Shown: in pieces, positions 1-13,024 of the stretch
Numbering within the stretch: position 1 is the first letter of the stretch
Layout: every line of letters begins with the position of its first letter
From: Nitrospirae bacterium GWC2_42_7
GTDB lineage: Bacteria; Nitrospirota; Thermodesulfovibrionia; Thermodesulfovibrionales; UBA6898
Length of the DNA stretch: 13,837 nucleotides
Reading direction: 5' to 3'
NCBI GenBank assembly: GCA_001803645.1
Contig: MHDW01000184.1
Location: forward strand, 9,406-23,242
Notes under the pieces: generated by a model
What the model was told of the DNA's origin: nothing
The model's input: only the letters and a program-made list of their open reading frames with translations
Database searches by the model: none
Made by a program: the position numbers and the translations under genes

Positions 1-922
1 GATAGTCAGTCCGCATGCCGTTACATCTTCCAAAATCACGGGCCTTCCTTTGGTTCTGAACTCTTTCAAAGAGGTCCTTTGCAATGATCGCTTCATGAGC
101 GTTCGGGCGGATAGTGCGCGGAGTCCCTTTCTTCGCCCATTTTCCGCCGTATATACGTTCTCCGATGTAGACACGGTTCACAAGGATTGAGCGGACAGTA
201 TCAACTCCCCAGCGTCCACCTTTCGGCGCCGGGGATCCTCCAGTGTTAAGAACATTGCAAAGCTCCTTATACCCCTTACCACCATCAGCATACAGTGTGA
301 ATATCCGATTAGCTAGGGCGACGGCATGCGGATCGCCGGGAACCCACTTGACCCAGTGGTTCTTAATTCCTTTCCTCTGGCCAGGCTTTAAAATGTCGAG
401 TTCATTTCCGTTCTCATCGCAAACCATGCGGCTATATCCTAACGGGGGAAATCCTCCAGTCGAATACCCCTTCTCTGCTGCTCCTGATTGACCGCGGATC
501 ACATCCTTTGCGAGCTGCTTACTGAACTCAGCGGCCTGTTCATACTTCACTGTTCGCATGATGATGCCGGCAGCGCCCGGCATGTTACTTTCACTTTGAA
601 CATATTCGATCATTACGCCGGACTTTTCAAGAAGATACTCATAGTGAATGCTTTCTTTTGCGTTCGGGACTCTACCAAAACGGGATTCATTAAGGATTAC
701 TAAGCGCATGAAATTATGTTGACCGGTCTGGACCTTCTGAAAGAGTCTCATTGCTCCCGGCCTCCCCTCGAAAGTAGTACCAGATATCCCTTCATCAATA
801 AACTCTTCGATAATCTCATACCCCTTGTCATGGCAGGACTTCCTGAGGATCTTCCGCTGATCCGGAATAGACATTTCTTGCTGGTCGGTAGAACATCTCA
901 TGTAGAGAGCTGCTTTCATCAT
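1..922 (-). CDS. Large serine recombinase (integrase), C-terminus cut off by window edge
   Basis: Site-specific DNA recombinase, probably the integrase of the element. I translated 307 codons; the frame is still open at the left edge. The resolvase catalytic domain is at the N-terminus: YMRCSTDQQ at residues 7-15 gives Arg9 and the nucleophile Ser11, GISGTTFEGRPG lies at about 45-56, and SRFGR (80-84) supplies the catalytic arginine pair. A Recombinase-type DNA-binding domain follows (about 150-265, with GGFPPLGY and the conserved VNRVYIGERIYG). The zinc-ribbon and coiled-coil end expected in this family would lie outside the window. The start is ATG at 922, which overlaps the upstream stop as ATGA. 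A second ATG at 919 is better spaced from the AAGGGA Shine-Dalgarno and cannot be excluded. It is the last visible gene of the replication operon. Family is clear; the role as integrase is inferred from context, and no att site could be assigned. Confidence 0.93.
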   Translation of the reverse strand, partial: MMKAALYMRCSTDQQEMSIPDQRKILRKSCHDKGYEIIEEFIDEGISGTTFEGRPGAMRLFQKVQTGQHNFMRLVILNESRFGRVPNAKESIHYEYLLEKSGVMIEYVQSESNMPGAAGIIMRTVKYEQAAEFSKQLAKDVIRGQSGAAEKGYSTGGFPPLGYSRMVCDENGNELDILKPGQRKGIKNHWVKWVPGDPHAVALANRIFTLYADGGKGYKELCNVLNTGGSPAPKGGRWGVDTVRSILVNRVYIGERIYGGKWAKKGTPRTIRPNAHEAIIAKDLFERVQNQRKARDFGRCNGMRTDY

Positions 923-1128
923 TTATCCCTTAAAATTCCTGTCTTTGATTTAGTCTCTTTTGCATTCATGTGTTCTGTTACTACCCAATCAGCCAGTTGT
1001 TTCAAGAAAAAATCTATCCTTGGAGGAATGTCCCTTCCCCTTTTCGGCTCTATTGACGGTATTGTAAGATTTCGCCTTGAACGAGTCAATAGCTCAGCTG
1101 CGATATATGCGTAGGCCTGCGCTGTCAT
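919..1128 (-). CDS. Small basic hypothetical protein between dnaB and the recombinase
   Basis: A 69-aa protein I do not recognise. It is Arg/Lys-rich, with an alanine-rich helical start (residues 1-15), a basic middle (TRSRRN, KRGRD) and a probable second helix (FFLKQLADWVVTEH, about 40-53). No signal peptide, membrane segment or metal-binding motif is visible. Coding status rests on context: its ATG at 1128 overlaps the dnaB stop and its stop overlaps the recombinase start, both as ATGA. AAGGA stands just upstream of its ATG and AAGGGA near its end serves the next gene. Its position next to an integrase makes a small DNA-binding accessory, such as a directionality factor or regulator, possible, but this is inference from place, size and charge only. 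Confidence 0.6.
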   Translation of the reverse strand: MTAQAYAYIAAELLTRSRRNLTIPSIEPKRGRDIPPRIDFFLKQLADWVVTEHMNAKETKSKTGILRDK

Positions 1129-2423
1129 TTGTCCTTATGATTCCTAAACGACATCGTGTTCCCATCAAAATAAAGCTTCACATTACCCAGGCCAATATTC
1201 CGGCCCTTTGCAAAATGGACCTCTGTAATACCTTGTACCTCTTTGGGGTTATCTCTGTAAAGAAACATAACTATGTCTGCATCCTGCTCAATCCCTCCAC
1301 TATCTCGAAGGTCAGAGAGTTTCGGCCTCTTGTCTTCTCGTTTCTCAACCTCCCTGCTCAACTGCGATAAGGCGATGACTGGGATCTGAAATGTTTTTGC
1401 AAGTTGTTTCAGAGTAGTACTAATTTCTCCTATCTCTCGTTCCCTCACCTTCTGTCTCTGGTTTCTTGCGAGCTGCAGATAGTCAACAACGATCATTTTG
1501 ACGCCCTTCACTTCCACCATCTGTGTTATCACTTTCCGTATTTGATCAAGTTCCATGGCAGAGAACGAAAAATATATCGGGAGAGAAACCATGCGGCTTG
1601 TCGCTGAGGTAATCGCATTAAATTCCTCTCTCTTAAGAATGCCCTTCCGTAATTTCCATATTTCAACTTGGGATAATGAAGCCATGGTTCTTATACCGAT
1701 CTGCTGGCTTCCCATCTCTATGGAGACTACACCGACAGGACAACCCGTCTCAGCAGCGTTCTGAACCATCGCCATGGCAAGCGCAGTTTTTCCCATGCTT
1801 GGACGAGCACCAAGAATAATAAGGTCACAAGGCTGAAACCCGTCTGTTATGGTATCAATATCTGCGTAACCGCTTGGAATCCCCGATATCTTTCCCTTGT
1901 CTATATACCTCCGTTCGATGCATTCCAATGTCTTCCTTGCCACTTCACGCATGTCAACTATCGGCTCAGCACCTCTACTTAAAATGTTCTGAGTCTCAGA
2001 TCTTAATTGCATCATGAGAGCGTCCAGGTTATCTTCGTTGATCCGGTCTATGACTTTTCTGCAGACATCCATTAATTTACGTTTCTTAGCGTGTTCTTGA
2101 ATAATCATGGAATGGTATTTTATGTTTGCAGAGGTAGGCACCATAGTAACAAGTGACGTAAGGTACTGAGAACCGCCGACTTCTTCAAGATCATTCATAC
2201 GCCTTAAATAGTCAGTCATGGTGATTATATCTATCGGCTCATTCTTATTAAAAAGCTCGTTCATTGCTATAAAAATCTTCCCGTGTGATTTCCGATAAAA
2301 GTCTTCATAACTTATCAGTTTAAGGGCTGTTGTCATAGCACCGTTATCTATAAGCAAGGCACCAAGTACAAACTGCTCTGCTTCGATATTTTGTGGCGGT
2401 ACTCCTGCTATATACTCGGTCAT
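1125..2423 (-). CDS. dnaB: Replicative DNA helicase DnaB
   Basis: Hexameric 5'-3' helicase that unwinds DNA at the fork and recruits primase. At 432 aa it is slightly shorter than typical cellular DnaB. The N-terminal domain starts with PPQNIEAEQFVLGALL (residues 9-24), the usual DnaB opening. The RecA-like C-terminal domain has Walker A GARPSMGKT (205-213), SIEM with the catalytic glutamate (Glu236), Walker B IVVDYL (311-316), the ALSQLSREVEKR segment (351-362), LRDSGGIEQDAD (372-383) and an arginine-finger region FAKGRNIGLG (404-413, Arg408). All key residues are present, so it should be active. The ATG has GGGGG seven bases upstream and overlaps the initiator stop as ATGA. Position directly after the initiator indicates an element-encoded helicase loaded at the element's own origin, as with phage P22 gene 12, rather than the host housekeeping copy. 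Confidence 0.96.
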   Translation of the reverse strand: MTEYIAGVPPQNIEAEQFVLGALLIDNGAMTTALKLISYEDFYRKSHGKIFIAMNELFNKNEPIDIITMTDYLRRMNDLEEVGGSQYLTSLVTMVPTSANIKYHSMIIQEHAKKRKLMDVCRKVIDRINEDNLDALMMQLRSETQNILSRGAEPIVDMREVARKTLECIERRYIDKGKISGIPSGYADIDTITDGFQPCDLIILGARPSMGKTALAMAMVQNAAETGCPVGVVSIEMGSQQIGIRTMASLSQVEIWKLRKGILKREEFNAITSATSRMVSLPIYFSFSAMELDQIRKVITQMVEVKGVKMIVVDYLQLARNQRQKVREREIGEISTTLKQLAKTFQIPVIALSQLSREVEKREDKRPKLSDLRDSGGIEQDADIVMFLYRDNPKEVQGITEVHFAKGRNIGLGNVKLYFDGNTMSFRNHKDK

Positions 2424-3121
2424 ATTAATTCCCCCGCGGCTGTTGTCTCCATCTCTAATTCTTTTTCAGCGGCCTTGATTATCTCCAGCATATTTTCTGC
2501 GGGCGCGTTTTCAGTAATTCGCGCGGCCTTTCGGTGCTTTCCAAACTTTAAAGCAAACTTAAACTGGTTATCGAGCTGTGACCGTGGACTTGCATTCTTT
2601 TTAAGTGGTTTGTCTAAAAGATATACTTTCCAGTTTTTGAGAAGTGAAAGGATATCAACATCAGGGTAGTCTTTAGATTTGTCCTGAAGAAAGCCTGAAT
2701 CTTTGTCAGCATCGAAGGGGTACCCCGGGATTGACTGCAAGATTTCAAAAAGCGGGATATATTCTTTATGTATATTAATATCATATATATTAGTAGTGTC
2801 GCTTGCTTGTCTCCTGCTCTTTTTGTTTTTGTCTCCTGCTAAACTTTTCAGATAAGAAAAGTCCTTGATAAACCTGAATTTCACTATATGTTTTGTGTCC
2901 CTTGCACTCTCGGTTTTTGTCCCCTGCTCGTCTCTTATTAAATTCATTGTTTTCTTAAGTGACCATCCCCATATTCTCGAATATTCCCGGCTGCTTTTCC
3001 CCTCTCCTTTTGTTAGATCATGCTGATACGAAAAACAAGCCTCTAAGAGTGTATATGGCCGGGTCGTTGGTAATGCAAACACTAAATCTTTATCAATCGG
3101 CATCCAGTTCCCTTCATTCAT
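2420..3121 (-). CDS. Phage-type replication initiator (O-like, winged-helix N-terminus)
   Basis: A 233-aa protein judged to be the origin-binding initiator. Residues 6-62 fit the N-terminal winged-helix domain of phage replication proteins: an early W-x-P-I, then LLEACFSYQHDL, SSREYSRIWGWSLKKTMNLI. Residues 63-118 are a polar, low-complexity linker that carries the iterons. Residues 119-200 form a second conserved-looking part (IPGYPFDADKDSG, LLKNWKVYLLDKP) that may contact the helicase. The architecture mirrors lambda O: DNA-binding N-terminus, linker overlapping the origin, and helicase partner next door. It is followed by dnaB with a 4-base overlap. The start is uncertain: ATG 3121 has AGGAG immediately adjacent and AAGGG about 13 bases away, whereas Met7 has GAAGGG at better spacing. 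Keeping Trp6, which matches the family, favours 3121. Similarity is judged by eye. Confidence 0.75.
   Translation of the reverse strand: MNEGNWMPIDKDLVFALPTTRPYTLLEACFSYQHDLTKGEGKSSREYSRIWGWSLKKTMNLIRDEQGTKTESARDTKHIVKFRFIKDFSYLKSLAGDKNKKSRRQASDTTNIYDINIHKEYIPLFEILQSIPGYPFDADKDSGFLQDKSKDYPDVDILSLLKNWKVYLLDKPLKKNASPRSQLDNQFKFALKFGKHRKAARITENAPAENMLEIIKAAEKELEMETTAAGELI
2761..2800. other. AT-rich block beside the iterons, probable DNA-unwinding element
   Basis: About forty bases with very few G or C, made of TATATTAATATCATATATATTAG-type runs, begin a few bases from the iteron at 2809. The block lies inside the initiator gene and encodes residues 107-121 (DTTNIYDINIH). Iterons on one side and an easily melted AT-rich stretch on the other is the arrangement of lambdoid origins. 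I infer that strand opening and DnaB loading happen here. Confidence 0.65.
2805..2928 (-). repeat. Iteron array in the initiator gene (four copies, 22-bp phase)
   Basis: The plus-strand element GTCYCCTGCT (minus strand AGCAGGRGAC) starts at 2809, 2831 and 2919 as exact copies, and a degenerate copy (GTCCCTTGCA, two mismatches) starts at 2897. All starts are separated by 22 or 66 bp, so they fall on one 22-bp, two-helical-turn register. The copies at 2809, 2831 and 2919 are preceded by TT. They are read in different codon frames (SRRQ, AGD, EQGTK, SARDT), so the repetition is a DNA feature and not a protein repeat. This is the spacing expected of initiator-binding iterons. Confidence 0.8.
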
Positions 3122-3282
3122 CTCCTGTTTTATTCCCTTTTCCTTTTTCTTTTTCTTGTTGTATGGTTTTCTTTGTTATTTCTTTCTTTTCCGTGTCCAG
3201 CTTGTCCCCTGCTCTCTTGAAACAGCATGAATAAAAAGACTTTTATTTATCCTGCTTGTTCCCTGCTACCATTATTCTTCCA
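3122..3282. other. Intergenic region upstream of the initiator with a polypyrimidine tract
   Basis: This is the only sizeable gap in the left-going gene run. Next to the initiator start the plus strand is almost pure pyrimidine: I count nine purines in 3121-3190, so the minus strand is a polypurine stretch containing overlapping AAGG-type Shine-Dalgarno-like sequence. The other half holds two iterons and an AT hairpin, and minus-strand AATAATGG occurs twice 11 bp apart at the 72-aa gene end (3269-3287). I found no convincing sigma70 promoter and no GC-rich terminator, so transcription from the ejection genes may read into the replication genes. Confidence 0.5.
3201..3267 (-). repeat. Two upstream iterons flanking an AT-only hairpin
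   Basis: CTTGTCCCCTGCT (3201-3213) and CTTGTTCCCTGCT (3255-3267) match the iterons inside the initiator gene, the second with one mismatch in the core. They lie 54 bp apart between the 72-aa gene and the initiator start. Between them is a perfect 7-bp inverted repeat, AATAAAA / TTTTATT (3230-3236 and 3241-3247) with a 4-base loop. Binding here could autoregulate the initiator gene or extend the origin. The spacing is not on the 22-bp phase. Confidence 0.65.
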
Positions 3283-3501
3283 TTATTTTTTATTGTTAAG
3301 CTTGCTCAGAATCTTCGTTACAAGCCTGCTTCCGAGGCTGGGGACAAACATTCCCTTATGTATGTGAAAGTTATTGTCTACAGCCTCTTCCTTTGCTGCT
3401 TCGTCCGCTGCCTTATTAGCCTCTAGTTCTCTCTGAAAATCGTCCGCCTCTTTCTGCGTATCGAAAACTACCCAGCCTTTGTCTGTTAAAACGCCCGGCA
3501 T
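3283..3501 (-). CDS. Small hypothetical phage protein
   Basis: A 72-aa protein with no assigned function. It opens with PGVLTDKGWVVFDTQKEADDFQ, a compact strand-turn-strand then helix, followed by an Ala/Glu-rich helix (about residues 28-41) and a basic C-terminus (LVTKILSKLNNKK). It is expected to be cytoplasmic. AAGGAG lies five bases before the ATG, which makes the start and coding status convincing. It starts 25 bases after the stop of the 920-aa ejection-like gene and probably belongs to that transcript. The VLTDKGWVV segment resembles a segment of the partial protein at the right edge of the window. Confidence 0.7.
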   Translation of the reverse strand: MPGVLTDKGWVVFDTQKEADDFQRELEANKAADEAAKEEAVDNNFHIHKGMFVPSLGSRLVTKILSKLNNKK

Positions 3502-8559: not shown

Positions 8560-10803
8560 TTAAAATCCTCCTGGTGGAATATCGGGACCAGGATATGGAA
8601 TATTCTCAAGCATATCCATGGCCCTGTAGAAGATGCTTCGTTTTGGTATGCTTATTGGATCAGGCATTTTGATCTGCACAAAGCCCTTTTCATCCCCACG
8701 GGCAAGGGGATGATTATCAACTTGCACCTCATATACGCCAGGGACCTTTGTCGCATACCATTTACCCTCTCTTATGTATTGCAGGGCTTTTTTATCAGTA
8801 AGACCTGCAACCCCTCCAGCAGCTTGTAAGTCCTTTTTAGTAAGACCCTTTATGGCGTTTCTGAAAGTGCTTTCATCATAGCCTTCAGGCAGTAATACCT
8901 GTTTGCCATTATATGATGCTACAGTCCCAACAGCTAAACTGAATGTGTCCTTAGCTATCTTCTCGTCTATCACTCCTTTTGACATAATGCCTTTTTGCGC
9001 AGCATTATATGCGTACAACGCCCGCCAACTGTTGTAGTATGTTACCTGCGTTTCTGGAAGCCCCTGTAGCCCTGTTCCCATGAGTTTGTCAAATTCTGAA
9101 CGCATTATTGTTGGATCATCCGGAAGAATTACGGCCTTGTCTTTGAGATATTTTTCCCCTGCTGCAATATTTTCTGCTATATCCGACTTGTTCTGTGCAA
9201 CATATCCAATCACCGCGGCATGACTGCTGTCTTTGTCTATTGCTTTCATTTGTGAAGCAATACCCATCATTGCATTAGGCCCTATGATTTTGCGTATATC
9301 TGCAAGCATTTTTGTTCCGGCTGCAGCATTGTTATCGAGGATGCCTTTCAGCACCTTTACTTCGTCCTGTTTTAGTACCGGTAGAAATTTCAGATCATTG
9401 GCTGCCTGTATCTTTGTTCCGAGTTCTTTCCTCTGCTGTATCTGCTGGATCAGTTTTGCAGGGTCAGAAATATTCAAATCTTCGAGCTTGTATCCGAATG
9501 CAGCAGCTCCGTACTTCATAGGGTCTGTATTGATCAGCTGCTTATGATATACATCACTTGTACCGATCTCCTTAATCTGGTTATATCGCCTCTTTAGCAT
9601 CGTGTCACCTTCGACAAGCTTGCTTGTGCGCACCCAGTCTTCAGCGTCCACCGGCATACCTGAAGTCACAGCGTCCTGCAAAAACATCAGTGCATCTCTT
9701 GCCCCGTTCTTTCTCTCGACTTCTGCCGCTTTTGCCTCTGCCTTGATCCTGTCTTTCTCATGTTTTACTTCAGTCTTTATTCCGTCAATCCGCGCCTGTC
9801 TTGAAACAGGGTCCATCCCCGGCATATTTGTATATGCGCCTGAACTGTCCTTCTTTGATAGTTCTGAAACAAGATTATTAAGGGCCGGTAGATTGTTTGA
9901 GGCTTCCTGCTTTTTCCGGGCGTATTCAGCAAAAGTTGCATCTTCAATAAATTTAATTCTTTTTGTAGTCGCTTCTTCATTGCTGAACATACTGCTATCA
10001 AAACTGTCATAATATCTGATCGCTTCTGCCGATCCGTTTGTTGCAGCTCTTTGAAGAAGTGACTCTGTAATATTATCGAAATTGGCCCGGGCCTCATCAT
10101 TTAGTTTTACAGTCTCCTGTTTTCTCAAGCTAGTCACAACAGAGTACATGGCTTTTTCATGTAATACCTCTGCCTCATCTGCAAAATCAGGCCCTAGGGA
10201 TTGTCTCAGATTTTCTTTTAACTGATTCGCTGCTGTCTGTATCTCGGTAAATTTCTCGTTATCAGGGACGTTTTTATCCTGCATAACAGAATCTGCAAAA
10301 AGCTTGAGATCTCCTTCATAAACTGCTACTGCTTTTTCTCTTGAGCTGTTTATTTTGCGGGTCCTTGCCTGCTCAAGTTTTTCTTCCTCATATTTATTTA
10401 ATGTCTTCTTTGCTCTCAGTAAAGCTTCTGCATGTAGCGGTTCCAGGTACATCTGCTGGTCCGGTCTTAGCTTTGCAGAAGTACTTGTCTTTACCTGATT
10501 TCCTGAAGAGCGGAAAAGCTCATATCTCTGATCAGCCGGAAGATCTGCATTCTTCTCCGTGATATCCTTCATAACATCTTCAAGAGCAGACTGGTGCTCT
10601 GTGAATATTGTTTCAAGCTGTGCCCTGTCTGCCTTGTCAGCAGCAATCATGCCTTTTTTCTGTTCATTCTGTGCTATCCCAAAAAAGGTATTTGAAAGGT
10701 TATCTAGACCCTGTGAAATTGAGGTGTCAGCCTGAGGTACCGGCTGTGATACCGGAGATACGATCTTCTGTCCGAAATAATCAGTTCCCTGTAGTATTCT
10801 CAT
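8560..10803 (-). CDS. Phage internal (ejection) virion protein, long helical type
   Basis: A 747-aa, strongly alpha-helical, charged protein with no signal peptide or clear membrane helix. It begins MRILQGTDYFGQK and passes through long helical stretches (about residues 40-250 and 330-370, e.g. EVKHEKDRIKAEAKAAEVERKNGARDAL). It ends in a small strand-rich region (AGGVAGLTDKKALQYIREGKWYATKVPGVYEVQVDNHPLARGDEKG, about 665-712) and a Pro/Gly tail (PYPGPDIPPGGF). This layout recurs in long helical internal proteins encoded just before the giant ejection proteins of podovirus-like phages, comparable in place with P22 gp20/gp16 or T7 gp15. GGGAGG six bases upstream supports ATG 10803, which overlaps the preceding 78-aa gene by 23 bases. 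No enzymatic motif was seen. The structural role is inferred from composition and order. Confidence 0.65.
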   Translation of the reverse strand: MRILQGTDYFGQKIVSPVSQPVPQADTSISQGLDNLSNTFFGIAQNEQKKGMIAADKADRAQLETIFTEHQSALEDVMKDITEKNADLPADQRYELFRSSGNQVKTSTSAKLRPDQQMYLEPLHAEALLRAKKTLNKYEEEKLEQARTRKINSSREKAVAVYEGDLKLFADSVMQDKNVPDNEKFTEIQTAANQLKENLRQSLGPDFADEAEVLHEKAMYSVVTSLRKQETVKLNDEARANFDNITESLLQRAATNGSAEAIRYYDSFDSSMFSNEEATTKRIKFIEDATFAEYARKKQEASNNLPALNNLVSELSKKDSSGAYTNMPGMDPVSRQARIDGIKTEVKHEKDRIKAEAKAAEVERKNGARDALMFLQDAVTSGMPVDAEDWVRTSKLVEGDTMLKRRYNQIKEIGTSDVYHKQLINTDPMKYGAAAFGYKLEDLNISDPAKLIQQIQQRKELGTKIQAANDLKFLPVLKQDEVKVLKGILDNNAAAGTKMLADIRKIIGPNAMMGIASQMKAIDKDSSHAAVIGYVAQNKSDIAENIAAGEKYLKDKAVILPDDPTIMRSEFDKLMGTGLQGLPETQVTYYNSWRALYAYNAAQKGIMSKGVIDEKIAKDTFSLAVGTVASYNGKQVLLPEGYDESTFRNAIKGLTKKDLQAAGGVAGLTDKKALQYIREGKWYATKVPGVYEVQVDNHPLARGDEKGFVQIKMPDPISIPKRSIFYRAMDMLENIPYPGPDIPPGGF
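8567..8572 (-). promoter_or_regulatory. Ribosome binding site that fixes the start at 8558
   Basis: A perfect AGGAGG on the minus strand lies eight bases before ATG 8558 and inside the last codons of the upstream 747-aa gene, whose TAA stop ends one base before that ATG. Ribosomes ending the first gene can restart directly. It argues against the longer 8609 start. Confidence 0.8.
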
Positions 10804-11542: not shown

Positions 11543-13024
11543 TTGTTCATAGCCATAGTTAAGGGGGATGCAATAGAAACTTTAATTGTCCTGCTGGGAA
11601 TATTAATTGCAATCACTATTTATTTCATCAAAACCAGAAAAATTGAGTCTCGTCCCGCCTTATCAAGACCTCTGACTGACATAAAACTTCCTCCCACCTT
11701 AGATGAGTCTGATGTCGACTGGCAGGACTGTTTAAATCAACTCCACAACGGCACAGATCACTTGTTTATTGCTGGTGTGGCTGGTACTGGTAAGTCCACA
11801 ATGATCAGGATGTATCGCAAATCAACCACAAAAAAGACCGTAATACTATCTTTCACAGGACTTGCTGCACTTAATGCCGGCGGTCAAACCTACCACTCAT
11901 TTTTCCGATTTAAGCCTGAATTCCTCGACAGATCATCAGTTAAGACATTTGAAGATACTGCTAAATATAGTGCTCCGGATGAGATCATTATTGACGAGGC
12001 CTCAATGGTCCGCGCTGATCATCTCGACTGCATAGATCAAACGCTCAGACTTAACGGCCGAGACAAGAGCAAGCCTTTCGGCGGAGCCAGGCTAATATTC
12101 GTCGGAGATCCTTATCAGCTTCCTCCTGTCACCGGTAAACCTGAAAGACTACCATTTAAAGAGTTATATAATATCCCTTCAAATAATGAACCCTACTTCT
12201 GGAAAGCTTATGCTTACAAAACATTTCATTTCATTCCTGCCATTCTGCGAAAAGTCCACAGACAGGACAATAAAGAATTTATTGAAATTCTTGGTCGGAT
12301 TCGTAAGGATGTCGCTATAGATTCTGACTATAAAACCATCAACAGCCGGGTCAATAAGTCACGCGGCCCCTCCCTTGCCAACAATGTAACCGCTATCACT
12401 CCCACGCGCAAGAGAGTAGATTACATTAACGAAACTCTCTTACGACAGATCCCAGGAGAACCGATCAGATACGATGCTGTTCTGACTGGAGACTTTGCTA
12501 AACTCAAAGCAAGAAATAATAATGATGACGGTAACCTCCCTGCTGATGATCCTCTATATCTCAAGATAGGCGCCAGAGTAATATTCACAAAGAATGACGG
12601 CAATATTGCAGGCAGATGGGTCAACGGTACGCTCGGCAAAGTTGCTGCTCTTGGTAATGACTGGGCGGATATTACTCTTGATGACAATAAGACATCCCAG
12701 GGTAATAAGACCTTCCGAGTCCATCGTGTCACGTGGGAAAAACTTCGTTACAAATTCAATTCAGCTACCGGCGAACTTGAAACTAAAGTGACAGGCACCA
12801 TGATTCAACTGCCTCTAAGACTCGCCTGGGCACTGACAATACATAAAAGCCAGGGACTTACTTTTGACAGACTGCATGTGGATCTCTCAACCGGCACATT
12901 TGCTCATGGGCAGGCCTACGTTGCCCTTAGTCGTTGCCGCACTCTCGATGGACTTTCTTTAGAAACTCCGCTTTATCCTAATGATATCAAAGTCGATAAT
13001 GAAATCAAGGTTCTCTGGGAATAA
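11543..13024 (+). CDS. PIF1-family helicase with an N-terminal membrane helix
   Basis: Superfamily 1B 5'-3' DNA helicase, 493 aa. Motifs in order: Walker A AGVAGTGKST (77-86), motif Ia SFTGLAALNAGGQTYHSFF (103-121), Walker B IIIDEASM (148-155), motif III FVGDPYQLPPV (186-196), a RKVHRQDNKEF segment (236-246), motif V ALTIHKSQGLTFDRLHVDL (430-448) and motif VI GQAYVALSRCRTLDGL (456-471). All are intact, so ATPase and unwinding activity are expected. Residues 11-30 (IETLIVLLGILIAITIYFIK) form a hydrophobic helix followed by a basic TRK, like a single membrane anchor, which is unusual for this family. The frame is closed by TAA at 11534. The only usual start before Walker A with good placement is TTG 11543, whose Shine-Dalgarno is weak. 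AAGGGGG about 20 bases inside the gene raises the possibility of a rarer start after the anchor begins. Role could be replication or recombination of the element. Confidence 0.9.
   Translation: MFIAIVKGDAIETLIVLLGILIAITIYFIKTRKIESRPALSRPLTDIKLPPTLDESDVDWQDCLNQLHNGTDHLFIAGVAGTGKSTMIRMYRKSTTKKTVILSFTGLAALNAGGQTYHSFFRFKPEFLDRSSVKTFEDTAKYSAPDEIIIDEASMVRADHLDCIDQTLRLNGRDKSKPFGGARLIFVGDPYQLPPVTGKPERLPFKELYNIPSNNEPYFWKAYAYKTFHFIPAILRKVHRQDNKEFIEILGRIRKDVAIDSDYKTINSRVNKSRGPSLANNVTAITPTRKRVDYINETLLRQIPGEPIRYDAVLTGDFAKLKARNNNDDGNLPADDPLYLKIGARVIFTKNDGNIAGRWVNGTLGKVAALGNDWADITLDDNKTSQGNKTFRVHRVTWEKLRYKFNSATGELETKVTGTMIQLPLRLAWALTIHKSQGLTFDRLHVDLSTGTFAHGQAYVALSRCRTLDGLSLETPLYPNDIKVDNEIKVLWE

Follow-up and report, generated by a model that had tools for sequence, protein, structure and literature searches.

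A candidate replication origin on an 11-bp register inside the initiator gene of a putative Nitrospirae prophage

Introduction

Replication origins that lie inside the gene for their own initiator are known from a few model phages. In lambda (NC_001416), one account (PMC7466680) places iterons within the initiator gene, followed by an AT-rich tract and then by the gene for the helicase step, and describes these iterons as 19-bp imperfect inverted repeats; the genome record annotates four 18-bp iterons with starts 20, 24 and 23 bp apart. Phage P22 (NC_002371) has its origin annotated within the O-like initiator gene 18, which is directly followed by the DnaB-like helicase gene 12. SPP1, compared here by description only, carries oriL in gene 38, with direct repeats and an AT-rich unwinding element inside the initiator gene, and encodes its own DnaB-family helicase, gp40 (PMC6316719). 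A putative origin is also annotated inside the replication initiation gene gp20 of Staphylococcus phage 80alpha (NC_009526), where the next gene is a DnaC-like loader.

Here we analyse a stretch of 13,837 bp, called the window below, from Nitrospirae bacterium GWC2_42_7 (contig MHDW01000184.1). An earlier reading of its letters had proposed a lambda-like origin within an initiator gene; the order of the parts at this locus, together with the repeats carried by related genes, argues for such an origin.

Results

An initiator gene directly ahead of dnaB in a putative prophage

The window belongs to a contig of 26,968 bp within a metagenome-assembled genome (MAG) of 2,579,021 bp. The left part of the contig holds ordinary bacterial genes, as judged by eye, and a tRNA-Leu; in the rest, one gene matches a virion structural family (phrog_684, E 8.8e-142) and others are recombinase-like, also by eye; together these lead us to read the element as a prophage, an integrated virus. 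On its left side, a recombinase-like ORF (L017 8595-9344) overlaps tRNA-Leu(cag) (8638-8724), and this overlap is a likely attachment site. Two recombinase-like genes, serine recombinases by eye, lie on one contig and on the same strand (window 1-920 and L018 2294-2998), and a PIF1-like helicase gene (window 11543-13024) is encoded on the other strand from the genes for replication and the virion.

The features of the replication region are, in window coordinates:

1125..2423, minus strand: dnaB, replicative helicase, directly downstream of the initiator gene (Pfam: DnaB_C, E 1.4e-81; DnaB N-domain, E 4.1e-34)
2420..3121, minus strand: initiator gene, 233 aa, with embedded candidate origin (ORF; homologues P0001-P0020)
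2420..2756, minus strand: C-terminal part, candidate helicase-contact domain (weak match, residues 123-199)
2757..2796, no strand: AT-rich block, candidate for the DNA unwinding element (the window's 40-bp stretch of lowest stability)
2796..2806, minus strand: weak iteron, linker cluster (slot 165; 2 mismatches, in register)
2807..2818, minus strand: exact iteron, linker cluster (slot 154)
2829..2840, minus strand: exact iteron, linker cluster (slot 132)
2895..2906, minus strand: degenerate iteron, wing cluster (slot 66)
2917..2928, minus strand: exact iteron, wing cluster (slot 44 after the WxW codon)
2930..3121, minus strand: N-terminal domain, predicted helix-turn-helix, about residues 1-64 (alignments; hhalign)
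3202..3213, minus strand: exact iteron upstream of the ATG (motif search)
3256..3267, minus strand: iteron with 1 mismatch upstream of the ATG (motif search)
3271..3299, minus strand: weak promoter-like site (TTAACA-17-AATAAT, 10/12; 0.7 expected by chance in the stretch)

The DnaB domain matches confirm that the putative initiator gene runs directly into dnaB, as had been proposed. At the protein level the likeness to lambda fails, as no relation to lambda O was detected. Iteron plasmids, whose Rep proteins have two winged-helix domains, also carry direct repeats in helical register next to an AT-rich element, with iterons about 22 bp apart that usually lie outside rep. The window protein, in contrast to Rep, has no Pfam match of any kind, and it has no PHROG match to any part, which separates it from the O-like initiator of P22. 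Its N-domain profile matches a set of phage initiators over the helix-turn-helix (hhalign probability 95.6); one member of that set, the protein of phage SL25, has weak winged-helix matches, and this distant relative also matches PF09681 weakly (E 0.037). Residues 123-199 resemble a stand-alone protein encoded beside the helicase gene of an Arthrobacter phage, again weakly (30%, E 2e-3). A search for related solved structures found none, with two matches at E 0.39.

Strand-melting computation placed the least stable 40 bp of the window at 2757-2796, adjoining the repeats, with 88% A+T and -35.7 kcal/mol; the next best separate stretch in the window reaches -41.9. The block touches the last, weak iteron, and the in-gene copies lie at its edge. 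The original prediction had called 2761-2800 nearly GC-free, which overstates it, since we counted 33/40 A+T.

Exact repeats confined to the locus

Three exact copies of GTCYCCTGCT at 2809, 2831 and 2919 and a degenerate copy at 2897, with 2 mismatches, lie where they had been reported, and their single register is real, with copy spacings of 22, 66 and 22 bp; what changes is its basic unit, which we read as 11 bp, the 22-bp spacing being that of a sparsely filled 11-bp lattice. The copies at 2809 and 2831 do fall in the linker-coding part, as claimed for all four, but those at 2897 and 2919 come earlier, in the predicted wing, an assignment that rests on alignment. Two more copies, overlooked in the earlier reading, lie upstream of the ATG: the one at 3204 is exact and the one at 3258 has 1 mismatch.

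The 12-mer TTGTCYCCTGCT occurs exactly 4 times in the whole 2,579,021-bp MAG, all within about 400 bp at this locus: 3 copies inside the 233-aa gene upstream of dnaB and 1 just before that gene. The motif is thus not equally dense elsewhere, and we rejected a genome-wide host repeat on the ground that all exact 12-mers are confined to this locus. When up to 2 mismatches are allowed, the window holds many copies of the motif (48 occurrences against 22.2 expected; 0/200 shuffles reach 48), and the copies at 2897 and 2798 are counted only because they lie in register. Inside the gene, the exact copies (11-mer form) begin at positions 195, 283 and 305 of its sequence. They fall in three reading frames and therefore do not constitute a protein repeat.

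Taken alone, the window gene is sparsely occupied, its 9 slots holding 3 exact copies, a degenerate one and a weak one, and its wing and linker clusters are 66 bp apart, the slots that would make this distance 44 bp being empty. Its best single self-match is not exceptional, being reached by 3/100 synonymous shuffles; its 11-bp periodicity has p = 0.005 against such shuffles.

The two upstream iterons (window 3202-3299) sit between the chance-level promoter-like site and the initiator ATG, and point to a possible autoregulation of the initiator. Their position next to a promoter-like site could also mean that the repeats are an operator only, through which the initiator or another regulator controls the operon while replication starts elsewhere. 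We consider this quite improbable: most copies lie inside the gene, adjoining the least stable DNA, the promoter-like match is itself at chance level, and among 17 loci, each searched with its own core, copies immediately ahead of the start occur in the window only, the other 16 having none.

Kept geometry and changed sequence in related genes

Homologues of the initiator gene do carry repeats. We compared each gene with itself at lags of 6-120, with synonymous codon shuffles as the null, and 17/18 genes sharing the N-terminal domain proved periodic at 11 bp with p = 0.005, the lowest value that 200 such shuffles allow; this count overstates the number of independent events since the relatives share ancestry. 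The exception is L016 (p = 0.109). With no register imposed, 48 of the 69 long self-match lags are divisible by 11. In the shuffles the mean is 5.3 such lags out of 12.4 and the maximum 11, although the fraction in one shuffle reached 0.83. The signal is absent from the neighbouring non-initiator ORFs of the same loci (0/41; first 900 nt of each, 100 shuffles), the one significant case of the 42 scanned being the initiator of L038, truncated at an internal Met. Left out of these counts were L012, L015, L020 and L060 (all the same gene, which ends ahead of the region), L033 (C-domain only) and duplicates of the same gene (L009, L014, L059; L019, L040; L021; L022; L031; L034; L045; L063).

The wing and linker clusters are 44 bp apart in 11/18 genes, the rest having 55 or 66 bp or one cluster only; cluster borders were set by judgement, L037 has one weak copy further out, and, as the slot search imposes the register, only positions and gap size count as its evidence. 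Measured from the conserved WxW codon, the window copies occupy slots 44, 66, 132, 154 and 165. They share the slots of L010, which are 44-88 and 132-154, and those of L011 are shifted by one base (43-87 and 131-164). Given these shared slots and the 44-bp gap in relatives, the 22-bp register of the window is therefore read as a partly empty 11-bp lattice. The repeat sequences, in turn, vary by lineage: AGCAGGRGACAA in the window, GGGACAGGTAA in L010, CGTTCCACAGA in L013, ACAATCTCCCC in L029, GCGAGTCAGAA in L032, AACGGGCCAAT in L035, CGGACAGATAA in L037 and ATTCCCCAAAC in L043. The L032 initiator gene also has an internal duplication with a shift of 114 bp, at gene positions of about 156-330, near its iteron array.

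Alternatively, the unit could be a two-turn, 22-bp site read by a dimer, with 11 bp as the half-site, a reading that we regard as unlikely though deserving of serious attention. The window copies are mainly 22 bp apart, and SL25 and L065 of a distant subfamily have 22-23 bp. Neighbouring 11-bp slots are, however, filled in L010, L011, L013, L029, L032, L043 and L067; the copies have a single orientation in 16/17 loci searched (in L041, 1/4 is reversed), and 2300-3300 of the window contains no inverted repeat of at least 12 bp. As relatives fill the slots between, 22 bp was set aside as the basic unit, and we retain the 11-bp unit.

The least stable 40 bp of the gene lie no more than 60 nt beyond the last iteron in 12/18 genes, the end of that iteron having been set by hand from the slot search and sequence reading. 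Across 20 homologous proteins, represented by their protein sequences, 54/60 sites whose codons could encode the window iteron are in lattice phase, compared with 1.6 of 15.9 after residue shuffling, and 5/20 proteins have no in-phase compatible site; in related proteins such sites reflect inheritance as well as constraint. Similarity of the N-domains correlates with that of the repeats (Mantel r = 0.37, p = 0.0012, with repeat lists edited by hand: L016, L030 and L037 each lost one weak copy, L044 gained one and L011 was shifted by 1), as would be expected if each initiator reads its own repeats, and shared ancestry could give part of this correlation.

That the repeats belong to the protein, as a tolerated linker repeat, or arose by chance tandem slippage, in either case without a function in the DNA, is barely credible. 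Linkers tolerate repeats and some relatives do hold plain tandem copies (L029, and the 114-bp duplication of L032), but the copies lie in different frames, the signal stands above synonymous shuffles in 17/18 genes, and repeats of unrelated sequence come with the same position, register and AT-rich block. A protein-level repeat was rejected on the three frames and the synonymous shuffles.

Later genes, distant relatives and controls

Drifting repeats at the same gene position with kept spacing, which the original prediction had asked of relatives, were found in the core family, and the picture is mixed in six genes added after the idea had formed. All six have p(11) <= 0.02, and a strict 11-bp lattice is present in 2/6: L067, with slots 43-87 and 131-164 and a gap of 44, and L068, which lacks the 44-bp gap. 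A period of 12 bp suits L061 and L064 better, L065 has 22-23 bp and L066 is weak. Among the distant relatives L047-L049, counted apart, p(11) = 0.005 in 1/3, and the other two have spacings of 12, 23 or 24 bp and no 11-bp signal. The isolated Pseudoalteromonas phage SL25, of a distant subfamily, has a replication gene (L050 2411-3127) whose linker carries 23-bp repeats and which directly precedes a helicase gene. Taken together, the later genes, L047-L049 and SL25 suggest a register of one or two helical turns as the broad rule, with strict 11-bp spacing a property of the core family.

Phages that share mainly the C-domain (11/12 loci scanned, L026 left out) have 6-, 7-, 10-, 12- or 23-bp repeats or nothing clear, with some 11-bp signal in P19250A (lags 11, 21, 22 and 32) and nd4 (lag 22). 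In Methylophilaceae phage P19250A, found by its C-domain, 11-bp repeats in the linker (L025 1560-2225) are followed by 7-bp AT-rich repeats.

Applied to known origins, the scan recovers the spacings of lambda O (lags 20, 23, 44 and 67) and, for P22 gene 18, ranks 20, 24 and 44 among the highest lags; in both controls the least stable 40 bp lie just after the repeats. Despite its 20-24-bp spacing, lambda O has p(11) = 0.010, since its lag of 44 is divisible by 11. What is specific is therefore the series of multiples, and not the p value by itself. The remaining controls gave p(11) of 0.050 for 80alpha gp20, whose main self-match lags, unlike those of the window, are 30 and 15 bp, 0.055 for P22 and 1.000 for TP901-1.

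Distribution of the family and its neighbouring genes

Protein and profile searches returned 20 homologous proteins (P0001-P0020), besides a fragment of the window's own, and homologous DNA loci were found in two environmental viruses, a Desulfuromonadales MAG and further genomes. The family is uncommon. It occurs in 1/150 relatives, namely the window's own genome, in 3/230 genomes of the window's class, which also includes genome G335, and in 3/395 of its phylum, own included; another genome set gave 3/46. Elsewhere the counts are 15/141 in the order to which G914 and the Desulfuromonadales MAG G422 belong, 6/395 in the phylum of G422 (one by C-domain only), 15/254 in the class of G710 and 1/23 in the class of G615, this being G615 itself. 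One Nitrospirae relative of the initiator (L012 2520-2732), with an ORF behind it that is ATPase-like by eye, breaks off at about 70 codons, immediately ahead of the iteron region; it looks like a decayed copy.

None of 24 family members matches Pfam at E 0.01, and none of 6 matches NCBIfam at E 0.1. PHROGs do match the C-domains of several relatives: those of L010 and L036 match replication initiation and primosomal families, and the matches of L038 and L043 include O-like ones. Against phage records, tblastn gave a single weak C-domain match for the window protein, 6 records, all weak, for the L013 protein and no match for the N-part of L043. Scans of viral contigs with the window protein and with the spaced DNA pattern returned little or nothing, and a scan with the L010 protein returned L010 and L011 again and nothing more.

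The downstream gene was tested for 10/17 relatives, and in 10/10 it matches a DnaB, DnaB-type ATPase, IstB/DnaC-type ATPase or Toprim domain. The neighbourhood also bears on whether the repeats could be a partition, packaging or other non-replication site that lies in the initiator gene by chance. One-turn direct repeats are known in partition sites too, but this site is part of a replication gene and has a helicase gene and DNA of low stability next to it, and we judge such a role highly improbable.

Discussion

Judged from the sequence of the locus and its relatives, the element very probably carries its replication origin inside its initiator gene. The locus combines repeats, their register and their position with an AT-rich block and a helicase neighbour, and the relatives keep the spacing while the sequence changes. 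The best explanation is an embedded origin like those of lambda, P22 and SPP1, in this case with an initiator family that has no Pfam or NCBIfam match and with one-turn iterons. Lambda O and P22 gene 18 share with the window the order N-domain, repeats, AT-rich block, C-domain and helicase gene. The window differs from lambda in its 11-bp slots in two clusters, in that no inverted repeat was found and in that the element encodes its own DnaB, and from P22 gene 18 in repeat spacing, the lags there being 20, 24 and 44 bp with no clear 11-bp period. We found no published description of an 11-bp origin lattice in a phage initiator gene among papers searched by title and the start of the abstract, a search in which subscription journals are sparsely covered.

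Such an origin is likely to work as those of lambda, P22 and SPP1 do, with a different initiator and one-turn sites, and we infer initiator binding, melting, helicase loading and autoregulation as its steps. The N-domain, with its predicted helix-turn-helix and wing, would bind one 11-bp iteron per monomer. With two iteron clusters whose register is kept across the strand-coding gap, the monomers, once bound, would be aligned along one face of the helix, and the resulting initiator complex could strain and melt the adjoining AT-rich block at 2757-2796. The C-terminal domain might then pass on the helicase, the product of the next gene, and this would enter on the melted strands. The two iterons upstream of the ATG may let the initiator repress its own promoter. 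Wing and linker would tolerate the residues imposed by the DNA sites, and site and protein would therefore be copied and changed together.

For the phage initiator family as a whole, we see an even chance that the origin is a one-turn lattice of 11-bp sites in two clusters four turns apart, with monomers stacked on one face, in which the DNA encoding the protein's own DNA-contacting wing forms part of the binding site, and in which the repeat sequence turns over completely and the geometry stays fixed. If this is true, recognition and site would change together in one segment.

The design known from the model phages would thus occur in an initiator family without Pfam or NCBIfam match, with its geometry kept and its sequence free, and spread over the class of the Nitrospirae MAG, the order with the Desulfuromonadales MAG and environmental viruses. 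The family would offer a natural series in which to study the joint change of an initiator and its site. It may also supply a simple search rule for origins in uncultured phages: helical-turn repeats across wing and linker, followed by AT-rich DNA and after that a helicase gene.
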